This document shows positions 48,436-56,984 of a DNA stretch of 64,000 nt, piece by piece (the first letter of the stretch is position 1; each line of letters begins with the position of its first letter). The DNA comes from Methylomonas methanica (GTDB lineage Bacteria > Pseudomonadota > Gammaproteobacteria > Methylococcales > Methylomonadaceae), in NCBI GenBank assembly GCA_001644045.1, contig LUUF01000035.1, forward strand, positions 1-64,000, in the 5' to 3' direction. The position numbers were made by a program, and so were the translations under genes. Under the pieces are notes generated by a model. The model did no database searches. It worked only from the letters and a program-made list of their open reading frames with translations, and was not told the DNA's origin.

Positions 48436-49404
48436 TTATTGCGGTTTTAGTTGGCGTAACTGATAGTGCAACACCGCCCAGGAACCCACTACCGCCAACA
48501 CGGACGAGATCATCAATAGCAAAATAAATTCCGAGAAACTCAAAAACAGTAAGTCGAACGAACTGTTATACAAGGTCGATAGTTTCTCCACCGGCGTTTC
48601 CAGGATCAACAGCATGATAGTCATGATCAGCCAGCCCAGAAAACCCGAGATAAAACCCAGCCAAAAACCGGTGTACAAAAATGGCCGTTGAATAAAAGCA
48701 TGAGTAGCGCCAACCAGTTTGGAAATAAACACTTCGTCCTGACGATTCTGCAATTCCAGCCTAATAGTGTTGCCGGTGATGAACGTTACCGCAAAACCCA
48801 GCAACAGACTGACCAACATCACCCCACGGCTGGCGATCAGCATGATGGTTTGCAAGCGCGCCACCCACTGCATATCGACCTGCACGAAATCCACTTGCGG
48901 GAATTGTTTAAAATCAGACATCAATTTTTCGATGTCTTCGTTATTTTCCAGCGCATTTTTCGGCACTACCTGAATCACGCTCGGCAAGGGATTGCGTTCC
49001 AGCGCATTCAACGCATCACTGAAACCGCTATTGGCTTTGAACTCCTCCAAGGCTTGCTTCTTGCTGATAAATTTAACTTCCACAACGCTACCGTTTTGCT
49101 GGATTTGCTCGGCAAGCTTCTGTCCGGCCGCATCCGTAATGTTGTCGTGCAAAAACAGGGACATCTGATTGCTGGATTCCAGATTACCCGTCAATTGCTG
49201 AATGTTGGCGACGACGATATAAAAGCTGCTGGCCAAGGAAATGGCGATGGCCAATACCAGGATGGTCATGGCAGAAGTAAAAGGCGTACGGCTCAATCGG
49301 CCCAGGCTGGAAAACAGGCCATGGGCATGATTAAGCAAATAGGCGTGAAATAATTCGACTAGCCTGCTGCCCGCTTGTTTGCGGTGATTGTGTTTCATCG
49401 TCAA
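48436..49404 (-). CDS. ftsX: Cell division protein FtsX (permease-like)
   Basis: A 322-residue membrane protein: a membrane segment (AMTILVLAIAISLASSFYIVV, residues ~43-63), a periplasmic loop, and three C-terminal membrane segments, the FtsX topology. With FtsE it controls peptidoglycan hydrolases at the septum. It overlaps ftsE by 4 nt. Confidence 0.94.
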   Translation of the reverse strand: MTMKHNHRKQAGSRLVELFHAYLLNHAHGLFSSLGRLSRTPFTSAMTILVLAIAISLASSFYIVVANIQQLTGNLESSNQMSLFLHDNITDAAGQKLAEQIQQNGSVVEVKFISKKQALEEFKANSGFSDALNALERNPLPSVIQVVPKNALENNEDIEKLMSDFKQFPQVDFVQVDMQWVARLQTIMLIASRGVMLVSLLLGFAVTFITGNTIRLELQNRQDEVFISKLVGATHAFIQRPFLYTGFWLGFISGFLGWLIMTIMLLILETPVEKLSTLYNSSFDLLFLSFSEFILLLMISSVLAVVGSWAVLHYQLRQLKPQ

Positions 49405-50057
49405 CTCGCTATCAAATGGCCTTTATCGAGCGTCAACACTCGATGGCCGAGATGATTGATCAATTCTATATCGTGGCTGGCTATCAATACCGTCACCCCG
49501 ACTTGTTTGAATTGCTCGAACATGAACATCACTTCGGCGGACAGATCAGGGTCCAGGTTACCGGTTGGCTCGTCGGCCAGAATCAGCTTAGGTTTGTTGA
49601 CAATGGCTCGGGCGATACCCACGCGCTGTTGCTCCCCACCGGACAGTGCCAAGGGATGTTTTTTTTCCTTACCTAGCAGACCCACTTTATCCAGAGATGC
49701 CCGCACCCGCCGCGCCACTTCCTGATGGTTGTAACCCGAGACCACCAATGGCAGGGCCACGTTATCGAATACCGTTCTATCGTTCAGCAATTTGTAATCC
49801 TGAAAAATCAGGCCCAGGTTGCGACGCATATAGGGGATTTTCCGCTCGCCGATGCGGGTAATATCCTGGCCGTCCAGCAATACGCTGCCGCGCGTACATT
49901 GCTCCATCATCGCGATCAACTTCAGCAATGTACTTTTGCCGGCGCCGGAACGGCCGGTTAAAAATGCCATTTCGCCGCGATGCAAGTGAAAACTGACATC
50001 AGTCAGGGCTTCGCCGGCATCGGGATAGCGTTTGCTTACGTGTTCGAATCTCAACAT
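49401..50057 (-). CDS. ftsE: Cell division ATP-binding protein FtsE
   Basis: A 218-residue ABC ATPase: Walker [10 protein letters not shown], signature [16 protein letters not shown], Walker [14 protein letters not shown]-loop IASHD. It pairs with FtsX. It starts 19 nt after the ctaA-ftsY reading frame, keeping the usual ftsY-ftsE-ftsX order. Confidence 0.95.
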
Positions 50058-50076: not shown

Positions 50077-52044
50077 TCATTCTTGAACAAATAGGGCATC
50101 GACGAAGTTTTGCGCATTAAAATCCTGTAAATCGTCTATCTGCTCGCCCACGCCGATAAAGCGGATTGGAATATGCAGTTGATTGGCCAACGCGAAAATA
50201 ATGCCGCCCTTGGCGGTACCGTCCAGCTTGGTTAACGCGATGCCGGTCAACTCCACCGCTTCATTGAATAGTTTAGCCTGCGACAAGGCATTCTGCCCGG
50301 TGCCTGCGTCCAGTATCAGCAGTACCTCATGCGGCGCGGACTCGTCCAGCTTGGTCATGATGCGTTTGATTTTTTTCAATTCGTCCATCAGGTTGGACTT
50401 GGTATGCAAACGTCCGGCGGTATCCGCGATCAATACATCCACCCCTTTGGCTTTGGCGGACTGCAAGGCATCGAAAATCACCGATGCGGAATCGGCACCG
50501 GTATGCTGCGCCACGACTTGTATATCGTTACGCTCGCCCCAGGTTTGCAATTGCTCGACTGCCGCGGCCCTGAAGGTGTCTCCCGCCGCCAGCATCACGC
50601 TATGGCCTTGCTGTTGCAGGCGTTTGGCCAGTTTGCCTATCGAAGTTGTCTTGCCGGCACCGTTAACACCCACCACTAGAATCACGAACGGCCCATCCTG
50701 CTTAGGAATTTGTAGCGGCAAACTGCACGGTTCCAGCATGGCCAATAAATTTTGCTTCAAGGTTTGGCTCAATACCTGGCCATCGCTGAGTTGATCGCGC
50801 TCCAAACTATCGGTCAGTTGCTTGATCAATTGCGTGGTGGTTTCGATACCCAAGTCGGCCATTAATAATTGAGCTTCGATGTCCGCCAATAACTCCTTGG
50901 TAACCGCTTTTTGCCCGAATGCCAAGCTGCTCAGTACCCCGCCCAGGCCGGTTCGGGTTCTTTTCAGCTGGGTGGTTAAACGCAAATATAAGGAATCTTC
51001 GCGGCTTACCTGAGGTACTTCCGCAGGCACTTGTTCAGTTGCAACAGTCTCCACGGCTTCGAAGGCTACACTTTCGTCTTCTGTTCCCGTGCTGTAACGG
51101 CTGTAAAACAAAATCCCCAGCAACGGCAACATCAGCAATGCGGCGACCGCATTATGCGCAACGGCCAACGCTAGAGGCAGCTGGTACTTGACGCTAAAAA
51201 TCCCCAGCGCAATCTGCACCAATAACAGCAGGCTCAGGATATTCCCCGCCAAACGCACCGGTTTTGGATAACGTTCCGAAGTAGCCGACAACATCAAGGC
51301 GCTGAGGACCAGGAAAGTAAATGCCGCCAAAACGCGATGCAGCCCCTGAATCGCCATTTTCGCATCGGCGGAAAGACCGCTGTCTCTGAACAAATCCAAG
51401 ATGCTCAGATAATCGGCTCCCGGTAACCATTCGCCGTTACAACGCGGAAAATCGCTGCACGCCAATCCGGCGTAGTTGCTACTGACCCAGCCGCCCAGCA
51501 CGATCTGCGCCAGCAAGACCAGTATCGCCAAACCGGTGAATATGATGGGGCCGGAACGAACCGGCCTTTTTTCGGCGGCTGGATTAAGTCGCAAATAGCT
51601 CCAGCCTAAGGTCCAAAACGTGAAAAAGCCTAATAACAAATGCGCCGTTACGACGCCGGGTCGCGTGCCGGATGTAACCGCCCACATGCCCAAACCGGCT
51701 TGCCCGGCAATCAACAGTAATACCGAGGCAGTCAACATCACCGCAGGCGAACGCGGCTTTTCCTTCCACGCCAGTCCAAACCAGATCAACACCAATACTG
51801 CCAGACCGCCCGCCAAGTAGCGGTGAGTCATTTCTTTCCAGGCTTTTGCGGTATCCAAGGCATACTGCGGAAATCCGGCAGCCGCATCGGCTTTAAATTC
51901 GGCGCTGTCGCTGACAATTGCCTTGCCGTAACAGCCTGGCCAATCCGGGCAGCCCAAGCCGGCGTGGGTTAGTCGCACATAGGCGCCGACGATAATGACT
52001 AGCAGCGCCAAAAACGCGCAGCACAGGGTTAATTTTCTGAACAT
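50077..52044 (-). CDS. ctaA-ftsY: Heme A synthase-FtsY fusion (CtaA joined to SRP receptor)
   Basis: A single uninterrupted frame of 655 codons. Residues 1-318 are a full-length CtaA/COX15 (converts heme O to heme A): eight membrane spans, the four haem histidines at 74, 135, 236 and 297, and CPDWPGCYG and CSDFPRCNG. Residues 319-350 are an acidic linker. Residues 351-655 are the FtsY NG domain: GVNGAGKTT (459-467), DTFRAAA, DTAGRL, TKLDGTAKGG, GVGEQIDDL. The usual acidic A domain of FtsY is replaced by CtaA plus the linker. GTG codons at residues 331 and 339 could give separate FtsY translation, but SD signals are weak. Operon context: SURF1 upstream, ftsEX downstream. Confidence 0.88.
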   Translation of the reverse strand: MFRKLTLCCAFLALLVIIVGAYVRLTHAGLGCPDWPGCYGKAIVSDSAEFKADAAAGFPQYALDTAKAWKEMTHRYLAGGLAVLVLIWFGLAWKEKPRSPAVMLTASVLLLIAGQAGLGMWAVTSGTRPGVVTAHLLLGFFTFWTLGWSYLRLNPAAEKRPVRSGPIIFTGLAILVLLAQIVLGGWVSSNYAGLACSDFPRCNGEWLPGADYLSILDLFRDSGLSADAKMAIQGLHRVLAAFTFLVLSALMLSATSERYPKPVRLAGNILSLLLLVQIALGIFSVKYQLPLALAVAHNAVAALLMLPLLGILFYSRYSTGTEDESVAFEAVETVATEQVPAEVPQVSREDSLYLRLTTQLKRTRTGLGGVLSSLAFGQKAVTKELLADIEAQLLMADLGIETTTQLIKQLTDSLERDQLSDGQVLSQTLKQNLLAMLEPCSLPLQIPKQDGPFVILVVGVNGAGKTTSIGKLAKRLQQQGHSVMLAAGDTFRAAAVEQLQTWGERNDIQVVAQHTGADSASVIFDALQSAKAKGVDVLIADTAGRLHTKSNLMDELKKIKRIMTKLDESAPHEVLLILDAGTGQNALSQAKLFNEAVELTGIALTKLDGTAKGGIIFALANQLHIPIRFIGVGEQIDDLQDFNAQNFVDALFVQE

Positions 52045-52048
52045 ATTT

Positions 52049-52636
52049 CTAACCGATTTGTGAAATTCTGAGTAACTTGTTTAAGTCGCTTTTGACTTGG
52101 TAAGGATCGTAACCCGGGGCGTATTGCATCATCAGGTTGCCCAGTGGGTCCATGATGATCAGCATGCCTTCCGGCAAAGGCCGTGCGCTTAATTGTTTTA
52201 ATTTTTCCTGCAAGGAGGCGGCTGGCAACGCTTTCAACAAGCGGCCGTCGTCACGCCATTCGGCCGGCAGCTGATAAGTTTTGTCGAACAGCACCGCCAA
52301 GCGACGAATCCGGGCAATATCCTTACCCATCATTAATGTCAGTTGATTAGTTTTATACAAGGCATCGCGACATGCTTCCTCGCAATTCTTGGGTACCGGA
52401 TTCACTAACACCCAGTGGCCTTTCAACTCCTGCATGTTTTGCGCGGAAAATGTATCGTAGCCGGAAAATTCGTCGGCCGAGGTAACTTGCGGCGGCGTAA
52501 TCAGCGCGCCATTGTTGGTGCCTAGCTTGACTATCTCAGGATTTTTCGCCAAAAACCACGCAAACCCAAAGGGCACAATGGACATGGCAAATATCACTAT
52601 GATGGTGATGCGGTTTTTTTTATATTGATTATCCAC
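52049..52636 (-). CDS. Membrane-anchored SCO/thioredoxin-like cytochrome oxidase-associated protein
   Basis: A 195-residue protein with one N-terminal membrane span (RITIIVIFAMSIVPFGFAWFLA) and a thioredoxin-like domain carrying NCEEACRDALYKT, a CxxxC pair of the SCO1/SenC type. The C-terminus GMLIIMDPLGNLMMQY matches the family fold. It sits between surf1 and ctaA. It probably helps insert copper or manage thiols for the oxidase; a canonical SCO with its distal His was not seen. Confidence 0.72.
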   Translation of the reverse strand: MDNQYKKNRITIIVIFAMSIVPFGFAWFLAKNPEIVKLGTNNGALITPPQVTSADEFSGYDTFSAQNMQELKGHWVLVNPVPKNCEEACRDALYKTNQLTLMMGKDIARIRRLAVLFDKTYQLPAEWRDDGRLLKALPAASLQEKLKQLSARPLPEGMLIIMDPLGNLMMQYAPGYDPYQVKSDLNKLLRISQIG

Positions 52637-53372
52637 GGTGTATTTTTCGACTACTGATCCAAATAAATAGGGCTGTTAACGTCAGCGCCAATCCGAACCA
52701 TTGTACTGCATAGGCTCGATGTTTTTCAGGCGGGATTGCGACGGCAATCTTCCATTGCCGTTGATAGCCCTCGGGCTGCGCCGGGTCCAGCTCGATCTGA
52801 TAATCGGCCAATGCATACCCCAATTTATCCGCCAAGAGCTTGCTATCGACAATTTGCACCCTGACCGGCCACGTTTCCCCTGGAATTTCCGCACCCTTTA
52901 ATTTCAAACCAGGTTCGAGAAAACGGTTGATTCTGCCACGCACTTGCTGCGCAGCCACGCCGATACTGATGTCCGGCAAAACTTCTCGCGAGACGCCCAA
53001 GGCCACCCAACCGCGGTTAACTAATACGCCAGGCTGCCCGCCGTCGGGCAAAAACGGCGTTAAAACCAGGTAACCCGGTTTACCGTTCAGCATCTGGTTA
53101 TCGATCAAAATCTGATGCTTGGTATCGTAATGCCCGTTCACTGACACGGGTCGATAGCGTAAAACATCCTTATCGATTCCGGTTTGCCGAGTTAAATCCA
53201 AGGCTTCCGCGCTGGCGGCATCTTGCTGTTGCGCCAGTAAAATCCTTTTTTGTTCGCCGCGTCCCAACTGCCAAAATCCCAAACTGCACAACAAACCGAA
53301 TAACAGCAGATATCCGCTCAATGCCGGCAGCGAACAACTGAATTCGATACCCCGCGTACTAAATTTGATCAT
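52629..53372 (-). CDS. SURF1 family cytochrome oxidase assembly protein
   Basis: A 247-residue protein with membrane segments at both ends (YLLLFGLLCSLGFWQLGRGEQKR and WFGLALTLTALFIWIS). The SURF1 marks FWQLGR and VLVNRGWVALG are present. It helps haem a insertion into CoxA. It overlaps the downstream SCO-like gene by 8 nt. Confidence 0.9.
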   Translation of the reverse strand: MIKFSTRGIEFSCSLPALSGYLLLFGLLCSLGFWQLGRGEQKRILLAQQQDAASAEALDLTRQTGIDKDVLRYRPVSVNGHYDTKHQILIDNQMLNGKPGYLVLTPFLPDGGQPGVLVNRGWVALGVSREVLPDISIGVAAQQVRGRINRFLEPGLKLKGAEIPGETWPVRVQIVDSKLLADKLGYALADYQIELDPAQPEGYQRQWKIAVAIPPEKHRAYAVQWFGLALTLTALFIWISSRKIHRG

Positions 53373-53782: not shown

Positions 53783-54658
53783 TTACATCATGTAAACAAA
53801 CACGAACAGACCCAACCAGACCACGTCAACAAAGTGCCAATACCAAGCTGCCGCTTCGAAGGCGAAATGGTTTTCCGGGGTGAAATGGCCTTTCCAGCTT
53901 CTGAACAACACCACCGATAAAATAATAGCGCCGACGCACACGTGGAAACCGTGGAAACCGGTCAACATGAAGAAGGTTGAGCCGTAAATACCGGAACCCA
54001 GGGTCAAACCCATCTCGTGATAGGCTTCGTAATACTCGGTTGCTTGAAAAGCAACGAATAAAAAGCCCAAACCGACGGTAGCGATCAAACCTTTGATCAG
54101 TTGATCGCGATTTTTTGCTAACAAGCCGTGATGCGCCCAGGTGCAGGTTACGCCGCTGGACAACAGCAACAGGGTATTCAGGAACGGTAAACCAAAAGCT
54201 CCCATCGGTTCGAAATCGCCGCCCACTTTACCTGGACCGTTAGTCGGCCAAACCGCTTGGAACGCCGGCCACAAAGCATCGTGTGTTGAACGGCCCGGCC
54301 CGCTTGGTAGACCGGTTTCACCCAACCATGTGACCGATAAATTACGCGTATACCAGAGTGCGCCAAAGAAAACGGCGAAGAACATGACTTCGGAAAAAAT
54401 GAACCACATCATGCCCATACGATAAGAAATACCGACGCCGTGGTTGTACATACCGGATTCGCTCTCGGTGGACTGCAGCGCAAACCACAAACCCAGCATC
54501 ACCAGAAATATCACAAAACCCGTCAACATCATACCGGGGCCGATCGACGAACCGTTCAGATGATTGGCAAAACCCGCCAGCGTCATCATCAAGCCGCCGG
54601 TAGCCAAAACCGGCCACACGGCCTTATGCGGTATGTAATAACTATCGTGTGTAGACAT
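53783..54658 (-). CDS. coxC: Cytochrome c oxidase subunit III
   Basis: A 291-residue protein with seven predicted membrane spans. FHGFHVCVGAIIL and FEAAAWYWHFVDVVWLGLFVFVYM are highly conserved subunit III segments; FIFSEVMFF is also present. It stabilises proton pumping in the aa3/caa3 oxidase. It is the last gene of the cox operon; a terminator follows. Confidence 0.95.
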   Translation of the reverse strand: MSTHDSYYIPHKAVWPVLATGGLMMTLAGFANHLNGSSIGPGMMLTGFVIFLVMLGLWFALQSTESESGMYNHGVGISYRMGMMWFIFSEVMFFAVFFGALWYTRNLSVTWLGETGLPSGPGRSTHDALWPAFQAVWPTNGPGKVGGDFEPMGAFGLPFLNTLLLLSSGVTCTWAHHGLLAKNRDQLIKGLIATVGLGFLFVAFQATEYYEAYHEMGLTLGSGIYGSTFFMLTGFHGFHVCVGAIILSVVLFRSWKGHFTPENHFAFEAAAWYWHFVDVVWLGLFVFVYMM

Positions 54659-54669
54659 ATCCTTCCCCT

Positions 54670-55212
54670 CTATTTTTTACTGATGTTAGTGTTATCAAAA
54701 AAAGTGTATGCAAGCGTGACGGTCTTATAGCGTTCGGGTAATGTCGGTTCTACAACGAAACGGACCGGCATGGTTTTTTCTTCGTTAGCTGCAAAGGTTT
54801 GTTCGGTAAAGCAAAAACACTGAGTCTTTTTGAAAAACTCCGCAGCCAAGCCAGGTGTGATACTGGGTATGGCTTGGGCAATCATCGGCTTATCAGTGTT
54901 GTTTTTGGCATAAAAATTAACCGTGTAGTATTCGCCCGGATGCACTTTCATGCTTTTCACCTCGGAGCGGAACAACATAGGCGTCGATTCGTTTAGGGAG
55001 GTGAGAAACTCCACAGTCACTTCCCTATTCTTATCCACCACGTACTCGGCTTCCTGTACGGCTTGACCTTCAACCTTGCCGTTTAAACCGGTTAAATCAC
55101 AGAGCACGTCATAAAGCGGCACCAAGGCATAACCGAAACCAAACATGGCTACCGCAACCAAAGCCAGCTTACGAACCAGCTTGGCATTTTTCTGCCTTAA
55201 ATCTTCGCTCAT
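54670..55212 (-). CDS. ctaG: Cytochrome c oxidase assembly protein CtaG/Cox11
   Basis: A 180-residue protein: one membrane span (LALVAVAMFGFGYALVPLYDVLCDLTG), a copper-binding CFCFTEQ motif, and the immunoglobulin-like body with MPVRFVVEP. It delivers Cu to the CuB site of CoxA. It starts with a 4-nt overlap (ATGA) on the 32-residue protein gene. Confidence 0.93.
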   Translation of the reverse strand: MSEDLRQKNAKLVRKLALVAVAMFGFGYALVPLYDVLCDLTGLNGKVEGQAVQEAEYVVDKNREVTVEFLTSLNESTPMLFRSEVKSMKVHPGEYYTVNFYAKNNTDKPMIAQAIPSITPGLAAEFFKKTQCFCFTEQTFAANEEKTMPVRFVVEPTLPERYKTVTLAYTFFDNTNISKK

Positions 55213-55367: not shown

Positions 55368-56984
55368 TTAAAAATGCTCAGTAGGGATTCTTTCCGGCGG
55401 TGTTGTAAAGGTGTGATACGGCACAGGGGAAGGCAGAGTCCATTCCAAACTGTGTTTGCTTGCATCTTCCCATACCTCGTCGCTGACTTTCTCGCCTGTT
55501 CCACCACGAATAGTGTCGATGACGATATACACGAACAACAATTGGCTAAAACCGTAGATGAACGCACCGATACTGGACACCATATTCCAATCAGCGAATT
55601 GAATCGCATAATCAGGGATACGGCGCGGCATACCAGCCAAACCCAAGAAATGTTGCGGGAAGAACAAAATGTTCACCGATACCGCTGACAGCCAAAAATG
55701 CAATCTACCAATTTTCTCGTTGTACATATTGCCGGTCCATTTAGGCAACCAGAAATAACCGGCAGCCATCAGGATGAAAATAGACGCAGGCACCAAGGTG
55801 TAATGGAAGTGGGCAACGATGAAATACGTATCGTGGTATTGAAAATCCACAGGCGCTACCGCCATCATCAAACCGGTGAAACCGCCCATCGTGAACAGCA
55901 CCACAAACGCAATCGAAAACAGCATAGGCGTTTCGAAAGTCATCGAGCCTTTCCACATGGTAGCGGTCCAGTTGAACACCTTCACGCCGGTCGGAATCGC
56001 GATCAACATCGTGGCGTACATAAAGTACAACTCACCCGCAACAGGCATACCCACGGTAAACATGTGGTGAGCCCAAACGATGAAAGACAAGAACGCAATC
56101 GCACCGGTCGCATACACCATGGAGGCATAACCGAACAGAGGCTTGCGGGCAAAGACCGGAATGATGGTAGATGCCACACCAAAAGTCGGCAGGATCATTA
56201 CATACACTTCAGGGTGACCGAAGAACCAGAAAATATGCTGATACAACACTGGGTCGCCGCCGCCAGCCGCATCGAAGAAGCTGGTATCGAAGAATTTGTC
56301 GGTCAGCAACATGGTTACCGCACCGGCAAATACCGGCATAATAGCGATCAACAAAAACGCAGTGATCAACCAAGTCCACACGAACAAAGGCATTTTCATC
56401 AAGGTCATGCCGGGCGCGCGCATGTTGAAAATGGTGGCGATGACGTTGATCGCACCCATGATCGAAGAAATACCCAGCAAGTGCACGGAGAAAATAGCGA
56501 ACGGAAAGGATTTACCGTTTTGAAAAACCAACGGTGGATAAAATGTCCAACCGCCCGATGGTGCGCCACCTTCCATGAACAAGGTGCTGGCCAACAATAA
56601 TACGCCGGCCACCAACATCCAGAAGCTCATATTGTTCATGCGTGGCAACGCCATATCCGGTGCGCCGATCATCATCGGAATCATCCAGTTGGCCAAGCCG
56701 ACGAACGCCGGCATTACCGCGCCGAATACCATCACCAAGGCATGCATGGTGGTCATCGAGTTAAAGAAGTTGGGATCGACAAATTGCAGGCCCGGCTCGA
56801 ATAATTCGGAGCGAATGACCAATGCCATGGCACCACCGACAAAAAACATTATCAGACCGAATACCAGATACAAGGTGCCTATATCTTTGTGGTTGGTGGT
56901 AAATATCCACCGTAAAACGCCCTTCTCGGGGCCGTGATCGTGGTGATCGTGATGATCATCATGTTCAGCTACGACAGCAGTCAT
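55368..56984 (-). CDS. coxA: Cytochrome c oxidase subunit I
   Basis: A 538-residue protein with 12 membrane spans. [15 protein letters not shown] holds the CuB histidine and the covalent His-Tyr pair; the haem ligand region is [11 protein letters not shown]. It is the A-type family with the Glu of the D channel replaced or retained outside what I can judge by eye. The N-terminus is His/Asp-rich ([13 protein letters not shown]). It is the catalytic subunit (haem a/a3, CuB). Confidence 0.96.

Follow-up and report, generated by a model that had tools for sequence, protein, structure and literature searches.

In the window, the stretch of 64,000 nucleotides of Methylomonas methanica DNA analyzed here, a single uninterrupted frame of 655 amino acids on the minus strand (50077-52044) encodes both the haem A synthase CtaA and the SRP receptor FtsY, and raises the question of what a haem enzyme is doing in front of a targeting GTPase. 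From a comparison of sequences we propose, with a probability that we put at roughly three in four, that CtaA became the permanent membrane anchor of the SRP receptor through an ancient fusion and, in many lineages, may have kept this role after catalysis was lost.

A single frame for CtaA and FtsY

Pfam assigns residues 4-306 of the fusion protein to COX15-CtaA (E 2.7e-70), residues 371-433 to SRP54_N and residues 452-652 to the SRP54 GTPase (E 2e-77). The FtsY equivalog model of NCBIfam (TIGR00064) is exceeded with 364.9 bits against a cut-off of 260.7, and the nearest NCBIfam haem A synthase model, an alphaproteobacterial one, scores 59.3, below its cut-off of 550. A search of PDB sequences aligns residues 330-655 with E. 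coli FtsY, and a six-row profile of the CtaA part retrieves the B. subtilis haem A synthase (6a2j) and a haem O oxygenase (8aw5). The COX15-CtaA domain, the eight helices and the cysteine pairs C32/C38 and C196/C202 agree with the CtaA type that bears two such pairs. By alignment, E71, H74, H135, H236 and H297 are all present, and hence the full set of both the N-terminal and the C-terminal bundle; H236 is the residue that we take to be H216 of B. subtilis CtaA. In the numbering given in passages of PMC8239418, E71, H74, H135 and H297 correspond to E57, H60, H123 and H278, respectively, and the same passages, with those of PMC7327177, identify the N bundle as the haem O (substrate) side and the C bundle as the haem b side of the enzyme.

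An AlphaFold2 model of the fusion, built from a 37-row alignment (mean pLDDT 86.8, pTM 0.61), displays eight long helices within residues 2-316, a drop of pLDDT below 50 at residues 327-346 and, after this low-confidence linker, the helix alphaN1 and the NG fold. The best Foldseek match of the model is the E. coli FtsY-NG structure 6cqp, with a TM-score of 0.92 by target. Since all 50 rows among the Foldseek matches listed are SRP GTPases, the assignment of the CtaA fold draws on Pfam, the PDB profile match and the predicted helices. The earlier note on this DNA, made without database searches, had described a complete CtaA with all four haem histidines and a complete FtsY NG domain in one frame, and each element of that description stands.

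On one strand, the gene order of the window reads cox1-cox11-cox3-surf1-(PA0111-like)-[ctaA::ftsY]-ftsE-ftsX (Table 1), so that ctaA does close an oxidase operon and ftsY does precede ftsE-ftsX, as had been noted. Just four bases (52045-52048) separate the stop codon of the PA0111-like gene from the ATG of the fusion, which is devoid of a clear Shine-Dalgarno site, and the two genes are probably translationally coupled.

Table 1. Coordinates of the fusion gene, its parts and its neighbours in the window, and of the second CtaA of the same genome.
Feature	Position	Strand	Basis
ftsX	48436..49404	-	domain match
ftsE, ABC ATPase	49401..50057	-	named by synteny and proximity to ftsX
ctaA::ftsY fusion gene, 655 aa	50077..52044	-	same arrangement, one frame, in 154 fetched genomes
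FtsY NG domain, SRP-receptor GTPase, residues 373-655	50080..50928	-	Pfam SRP54_N and SRP54, TIGR00064, Foldseek
FtsY helix alphaN1, amphipathic, retained, residues 351-372	50929..50994	-	alignment, AlphaFold2
Acidic disordered linker, residues 313-350	50995..51108	-	pLDDT <50 at 327-346; no conserved start codon
CtaA C-terminal four-helix bundle, residues 156-312	51109..51579	-	Pfam, AlphaFold2 helices
H297 codon, haem b ligand	51154..51156	-	alignment; His in 154/154 fused proteins
H236 codon, haem b ligand	51337..51339	-	alignment; His in 153/154 fused proteins
CtaA N-terminal four-helix bundle, residues 1-155	51580..52044	-	Pfam COX15-CtaA, AlphaFold2 helices
H135 codon	51640..51642	-	alignment
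H74 codon	51823..51825	-	alignment
E71 codon	51832..51834	-	aligns with the Glu three residues ahead of the first haem His in 6a2j
PA0111-like small redox protein	52049..52636	-	49.6 bits, below NCBIfam cut-off of 230
surf1	52629..53372	-	domain match
cox3, oxidase subunit III	53783..54658	-	domain match
cox11/ctaG	54670..55212	-	domain match
cox1, oxidase subunit I	55368..56984	-	domain match
Second CtaA, E-N-H-H-H	window genome, C76 (L003 1027-2001)		Pfam, alignment

The genome that contains the window (5.02 Mb in 115 contigs, 99.98% complete) yields only three further matches to the fusion protein at E 0.001: Ffh on C5 (TIGR00959) and FlhF on C11 (TIGR03499), each above the curated NCBIfam cut-off for its name, and a second CtaA, here termed CtaA2. 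Further copies of either half had been left as a check by the earlier note. At this threshold no second ftsY is found in the window genome, the other GTPase matches being Ffh and FlhF, and one second ctaA is present, on C76. In the same genome a single haem O synthase exceeds the cut-off, and oxidase subunit I is matched three times. Two copies of PF02461, the family of copper monooxygenase subunit A, lie on C92 and C86, which fits a methanotroph.

Distribution and origin of the fusion

The fusion is a single frame in all 37 genomes of the genus to which the window belongs, with two exceptions in form: it is cut by a contig edge in G029, and in G005 it is matched in two pieces within a single longer frame. 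Two loci of the genus, L190 and L021, have frames of 787 and 775 codons; in L190 the two halves align separately with the window protein, which suggests a longer linker. Across a sample of 201 genomes of the family, and among the matches listed, single frames extend down to 52% identity except for pieces at contig edges; an FtsY-level match, judged by the best E value, is lacking in eight of these genomes, perhaps because of assembly gaps. For the order we sampled 151 genomes with a completeness of 85% or more, in which frames were fetched and re-read, and found CtaA and FtsY in one frame in 135 of them; the total fused set comprises 154 genomes from 44 genera and six of the eight families sampled. 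The search for further CtaA-FtsY frames proposed in the earlier note has thus been answered abundantly, and the fusion, there treated as a feature of this genome, turns out to be common to most of the sampled order. With one frame recurring in 154 genomes and in four named records, assembly error, frameshift and chance can be excluded as its source.

Within families f1 to f6, 135 of the 137 genomes of the order sample are fused. The 16 unfused genomes are the two exceptions, G267 and G274, and the 14 genomes of families f7 and f8, where FtsY occupies a frame of 343-367 amino acids in 13 and the listing for the remaining one (G229) gives a best E of 1.2e-73. In G274 no FtsY-level match was found in the order sample. 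In G267 (family f4, genus g47) the CtaA and FtsY parts lie in different frames and most of the linker is missing (L084), which is either a real fission or a sequence error; two other genomes of g47 (L086 and L159) are fused. Among the best 80 named CtaA loci of the scan, four are fused, namely those of Methylomonas sp. SURF-1 (L189), Methylomonas koyamae R-45383 (L190), Candidatus Methylobacter oryzae KRF1 (L191) and Methylococcus sp. UBA6136 (L236), and the other 76 have frames of 324-436 amino acids.

Beyond the order, 370 genomes of the class, searched to E 1e-110, gave full-length matches among those listed only in G000, G046 and G219, and 397 genomes of the phylum, searched to E 1e-122, only in G000 and G219, all of them members of the order, in samples that are sparse and E-limited and in which rarer or very diverged fusions could be missed. 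Hence, the fusion looks confined to the order and old there. Among the plasmid records searched, none covers 80% of the fusion query. In two genomes from other families of the class, FtsY lies in frames of 993 codons (G360:C40, 14689-15597) and 944 codons (G528:C31, 17235-18152), which may represent further fusions or simply long open frames. A link to methane or copper monooxygenase was considered and rejected: PF02461 occurs in 127 of the 151 order genomes and, being present in 11 of the 14 unfused f7 and f8 genomes, fails to separate fused from unfused members. In agreement with the earlier note, which knew of no described example, literature searches judged by titles and abstract openings returned no description of a CtaA-FtsY fusion, and the word FtsY is absent from the passages of PMC8239418 and PMC9145763 consulted.

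The unfused families suggest how the frame may have arisen. In three f7 stretches (L061, L174 and L175), two pitrilysin-family genes are followed by ftsY-ftsE-ftsX-rpoH, which lies tail-to-tail with ctaA-(PA0111-like)-surf1-cox3. The same convergent arrangement is seen in f8 (L059), where the stretch ends with ctaA; in another f7 locus (L062) rpoH is farther away and ctaA falls outside the stretch. At the more distant named loci L210, L221 and L249, ctaA likewise faces the rpoH...ftsY block, ftsE and ftsX matches being absent from L210. In fused loci of f6 (L053 with L276; L278) and f4 (L083 with L277), two pitrilysin genes lie downstream on the strand of the fusion, as would be expected from an inversion of the ftsY-rpoH block. 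This support comes from three genomes of two families: pitrilysin genes are present in only 2 of 35 mapped fused loci and absent from two of five extended stretches (L279 and L280), the rest being rearranged or too short. The rpoH gene follows the fusion in 16 of the 35 mapped loci and in a 17th (L050) lies upstream on the other strand. In three f4 loci (L055, L056 and L083) no ftsE or ftsX match occurs in the 6.4-7.2 kb after the fusion, which suggests that ftsEX was relocated or lost in them.

A single inversion, cutting close to the end of ctaA and shortly inside ftsY, would explain both the fusion and the gene order. In the ancestor of most of the order, such an event would have joined ctaA, the last gene of the oxidase operon, in frame to ftsY and removed the N-terminal tip of FtsY, which in the unfused sisters consists of MFGFGKKK... 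and a short spacer. All six unfused FtsYs read (five of f7, one of f8) start in this way; in fused FtsYs the MFGFGKKK tip is gone, CtaA stands in its place and alphaN1 is kept. The tip of the unfused protein probably binds the membrane. The proposal of the earlier note that eight membrane spans replace the lipid-binding A domain holds for the part before alphaN1, the amphipathic alphaN1 itself being retained. In a quick tree of 76 FtsYs, the 70 fused rows fall on one side of a branch with an SH-aLRT of 93, although the tree carries no bootstraps, support is weak for 30 of the 73 inner branches and the root was set on the six unfused rows.

One origin on the tree, for which one inversion suffices, together with full-length matches that are restricted to the order among those listed in the E-limited samples of 370 and 397 genomes, is also what would be expected if the fusion were simply adequate and hard to undo, with no advantage to either part. 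We regard such a frozen accident as possible, if short of even odds. It amounts to the anchor proposal minus its benefit and is not exclusive of it, and the conservation of haem b ligands and cysteines in members with a changed active site, described below, suggests more than inertia.

Change in the catalytic half of CtaA

Residue states were scored on an alignment comprising every fused and stand-alone CtaA, on which the calls of a decayed bundle depend. The set E71/H74/H135/H236/H297 is canonical throughout in 62 of 154 fused proteins and changed in the other 92. The changes of the N bundle affect E71 in 83 proteins, at least one histidine in 53 and both in 30, whereas both C-bundle histidines are kept in all but one protein, which has Tyr at H236. 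The full active site is found in 31 of 32 loci of the genus of the window, and all five residues are canonical in the six unfused f7 and f8 CtaAs; the five also figure in the 90%-conserved list of a mixed alignment. On a quick tree, at least 10 switches between canonical and changed states are needed.

The loss of constraint is concentrated in the N bundle. In 200 draws of one genome per genus, comparing 13 canonical with 13 changed genera, the columns conserved at 90% fell from 34.9 to 3.5 in the N bundle, as against 31.1 to 19.2 in the C bundle and 169.0 to 157.4 in FtsY. M1 is the sole conserved N-bundle column of changed members, while their C bundle conserves G184, W186, A192, C196, F199, P200, C202, P208, H236, R237, F244, L273, L274 and H297. 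Among unsaturated independent within-genus pairs (25 canonical and 27 changed), the median dN/dS was 0.094 for canonical versus 0.201 for changed members in the N bundle, 0.098 versus 0.125 in the C bundle and 0.034 versus 0.045 in FtsY. The N/C ratio of nonsynonymous change was 0.84 in canonical and 1.31 in changed pairs (Mann-Whitney p 0.00016), and the N value was higher than the C value in 21 of the 27 changed pairs, as compared with 11 of the 25 canonical ones. In the N bundle of changed members, selection is relaxed yet still purifying. The membrane part persists nonetheless: by hydropathy, all but one of the 61 canonical fused proteins (60) and 85 of the 92 changed ones have eight helices, the other changed members having six (three proteins), nine (three) or seven (one). 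In the three g13 loci with six helices, helices 2 and 3 were lost together, so that parity is kept. What is new here is that the N-bundle set is changed in 92 of 154 fused proteins while the helices, the haem b ligands and the fusion itself persist.

A second CtaA accompanies most fusions. In a Pfam scan of the same 151 genomes, 132 of the 135 fused genomes have two or more CtaA matches, the exceptions being G056 and G220, both canonical, and G230, which is changed and 85% complete; among the 14 unfused f7 and f8 genomes, 13 have one match and G258 none. Of the 89 changed genomes in the order sample, 88 have at least two matches, and a second match is also present in 44 of 46 canonical ones; hence, the presence of CtaA2 permits decay and does not predict it. 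Haem A synthesis may have passed to CtaA2 in lineages whose fused site decayed. All 20 copies of CtaA2 read in fused genomes, from among the matches listed, have the set E-N-H-H-H, with Asn at the H60 position, so that the role of CtaA2 as haem A maker is not certain; passages of PMC8239418 list an Asn at that position for one CtaA type.

These results bear on the view, held in the earlier note, that the fusion ties targeting to aerobic respiration. Since the active-site set is changed in 92 of 154 proteins and the fusion is kept, no simple tie of this kind is apparent, and 132 of the 135 fused genomes of the order sample have a further CtaA match. A more specific form of coupling, in which haem A synthase and SRP docking work together and oxidase subunit I is inserted at the site where haem A is made, would suit the place of the fusion within the cox operon, the intact active site of 31 of the 32 loci of the genus and the E/H/H/H/H set of the two single-match genomes G056 and G220. 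Against it stand the partial or complete change of the N-bundle set in those 92 proteins and the small share that oxidase insertion takes in SRP traffic. We consider it unlikely as a general account, and it could still hold for canonical members. The C bundle, which retains its two ligands and cysteine pair even in members without the catalytic set, might also be thought to sense haem or redox state and signal to the FtsY GTPase, insertion thereby following haem supply or respiration; such haem gating we deem a very unlikely, if bold, possibility. The retention of haem b ligands in decayed members might reflect either this kind of haem or redox control or, more plainly, support of folding.

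CtaA as a candidate anchor of the SRP receptor

Under the anchor proposal, the SRP receptor would since the inversion have been an integral membrane protein, held by the eight CtaA helices. The C-terminus of CtaA would be cytosolic, and the NG domain, tethered by the flexible acidic linker, would meet SRP-ribosome complexes at the membrane without an on-off lipid cycle. Haem A is probably still made by the CtaA part in the genus of the window; many other lineages possess a second CtaA, and in these the catalytic N bundle would have decayed and the CtaA part would have been kept as an anchor because FtsY needs it. From the sequences we infer the inversion, permanent anchoring, loss of catalysis, topology and the haem A maker among the CtaAs, and the anchor role is suggested by retention of the CtaA part. 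Passages of PMC8239418 place the cysteine loops after helices 1 and 5 outside the cell and, the helix number being even, FtsY should stay on the cytosolic side, an argument that the 4 of 92 changed members with seven or nine helices would break unless the crude count is off.

Alternatively, the fusion might be merely a unit of translation from which CtaA and FtsY, acting apart, are released by a protease or through an internal start. The linker, disordered in the model and fast-evolving, would suit such a polyprotein, and gene order places both genes in one operon anyway. The internal start suggested in the earlier note, GTG at 51054, corresponds to residue 331 and is not conserved across loci. 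It lacks a Shine-Dalgarno-like site, a weak test that proves little, as just 2 of 153 aligned fusion starts are preceded by one. Across residues 313-350, no column has a start-like codon in more than 14 of 152 loci, 42 of 153 loci have no ATG, GTG or TTG at all and 7 of 153 have an ATG; in columns 352-371 such codons occupy ordinary leucine or valine positions, in at most 40 of 153 loci. A conserved separate FtsY start is therefore unlikely, and a weak local start in some species is possible. A released FtsY would not need CtaA, yet members with a changed N bundle keep six to nine helices, and the near-universal fusion of f1 to f6, where G267 is one possible reversal, likewise speaks against release. 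Overall, we judge the polyprotein distinctly unlikely. The fusion could still be cleaved after synthesis, or a minor amount of FtsY arise from weak internal codons, either of which would count against the anchor proposal.

Permanent anchoring of FtsY has parallels. In a laboratory construct of 1997, cited in PMC2780400, the NG domain was placed behind a membrane protein and was reportedly functional in vivo; the fusion has the same layout and, unlike the construct, is natural and present in six families. Some FtsYs are reported to have a true transmembrane helix. Together with the construct, they indicate that a membrane-anchored FtsY works in principle. They share with the fusion a receptor held by its N-terminal part, but the anchor is here a whole eight-helix haem enzyme, joined by rearrangement. 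In the eukaryotic SRP receptor, according to passages of PMC2780400, SR-alpha is held by the membrane subunit SR-beta, so that a targeting GTPase is again tethered by a dedicated membrane protein; SR-beta, however, is a GTPase and a separate subunit, whereas the tether of the fusion is covalent and carries haem ligands. On the CtaA side, B. subtilis CtaA/Cox15 (6a2j) shares the domain, the cysteine pairs and the haem ligands, and CtaA-CtaB fusions, mentioned in passages of PMC8239418, likewise join CtaA to a partner; in the present case, by contrast, the partner is a GTPase of another pathway and the catalytic half is changed in 92 of 154 proteins.

For annotation and genetics, it would be misleading to treat ftsY of fused genomes as a normal FtsY. 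The ftsY gene is essential in E. coli and B. subtilis, and a knockout of the fused "ctaA" would be expected to remove it. FtsY is usually described as a peripheral lipid-binding protein. In passages of PMC5533587, a two-step mechanism of membrane binding is proposed for it. The order, to which methane-oxidizing bacteria belong and which includes Methylomonas, Methylobacter and Methylococcus records, has apparently exchanged lipid binding for a permanent anchor and thus offers a natural test of whether the lipid-binding step of FtsY matters. It would also be a striking case of an enzyme turned anchor, in which the catalytic half decays while the other half and its haem b ligands are kept, so that the constraints on the two halves of CtaA appear to be separable.
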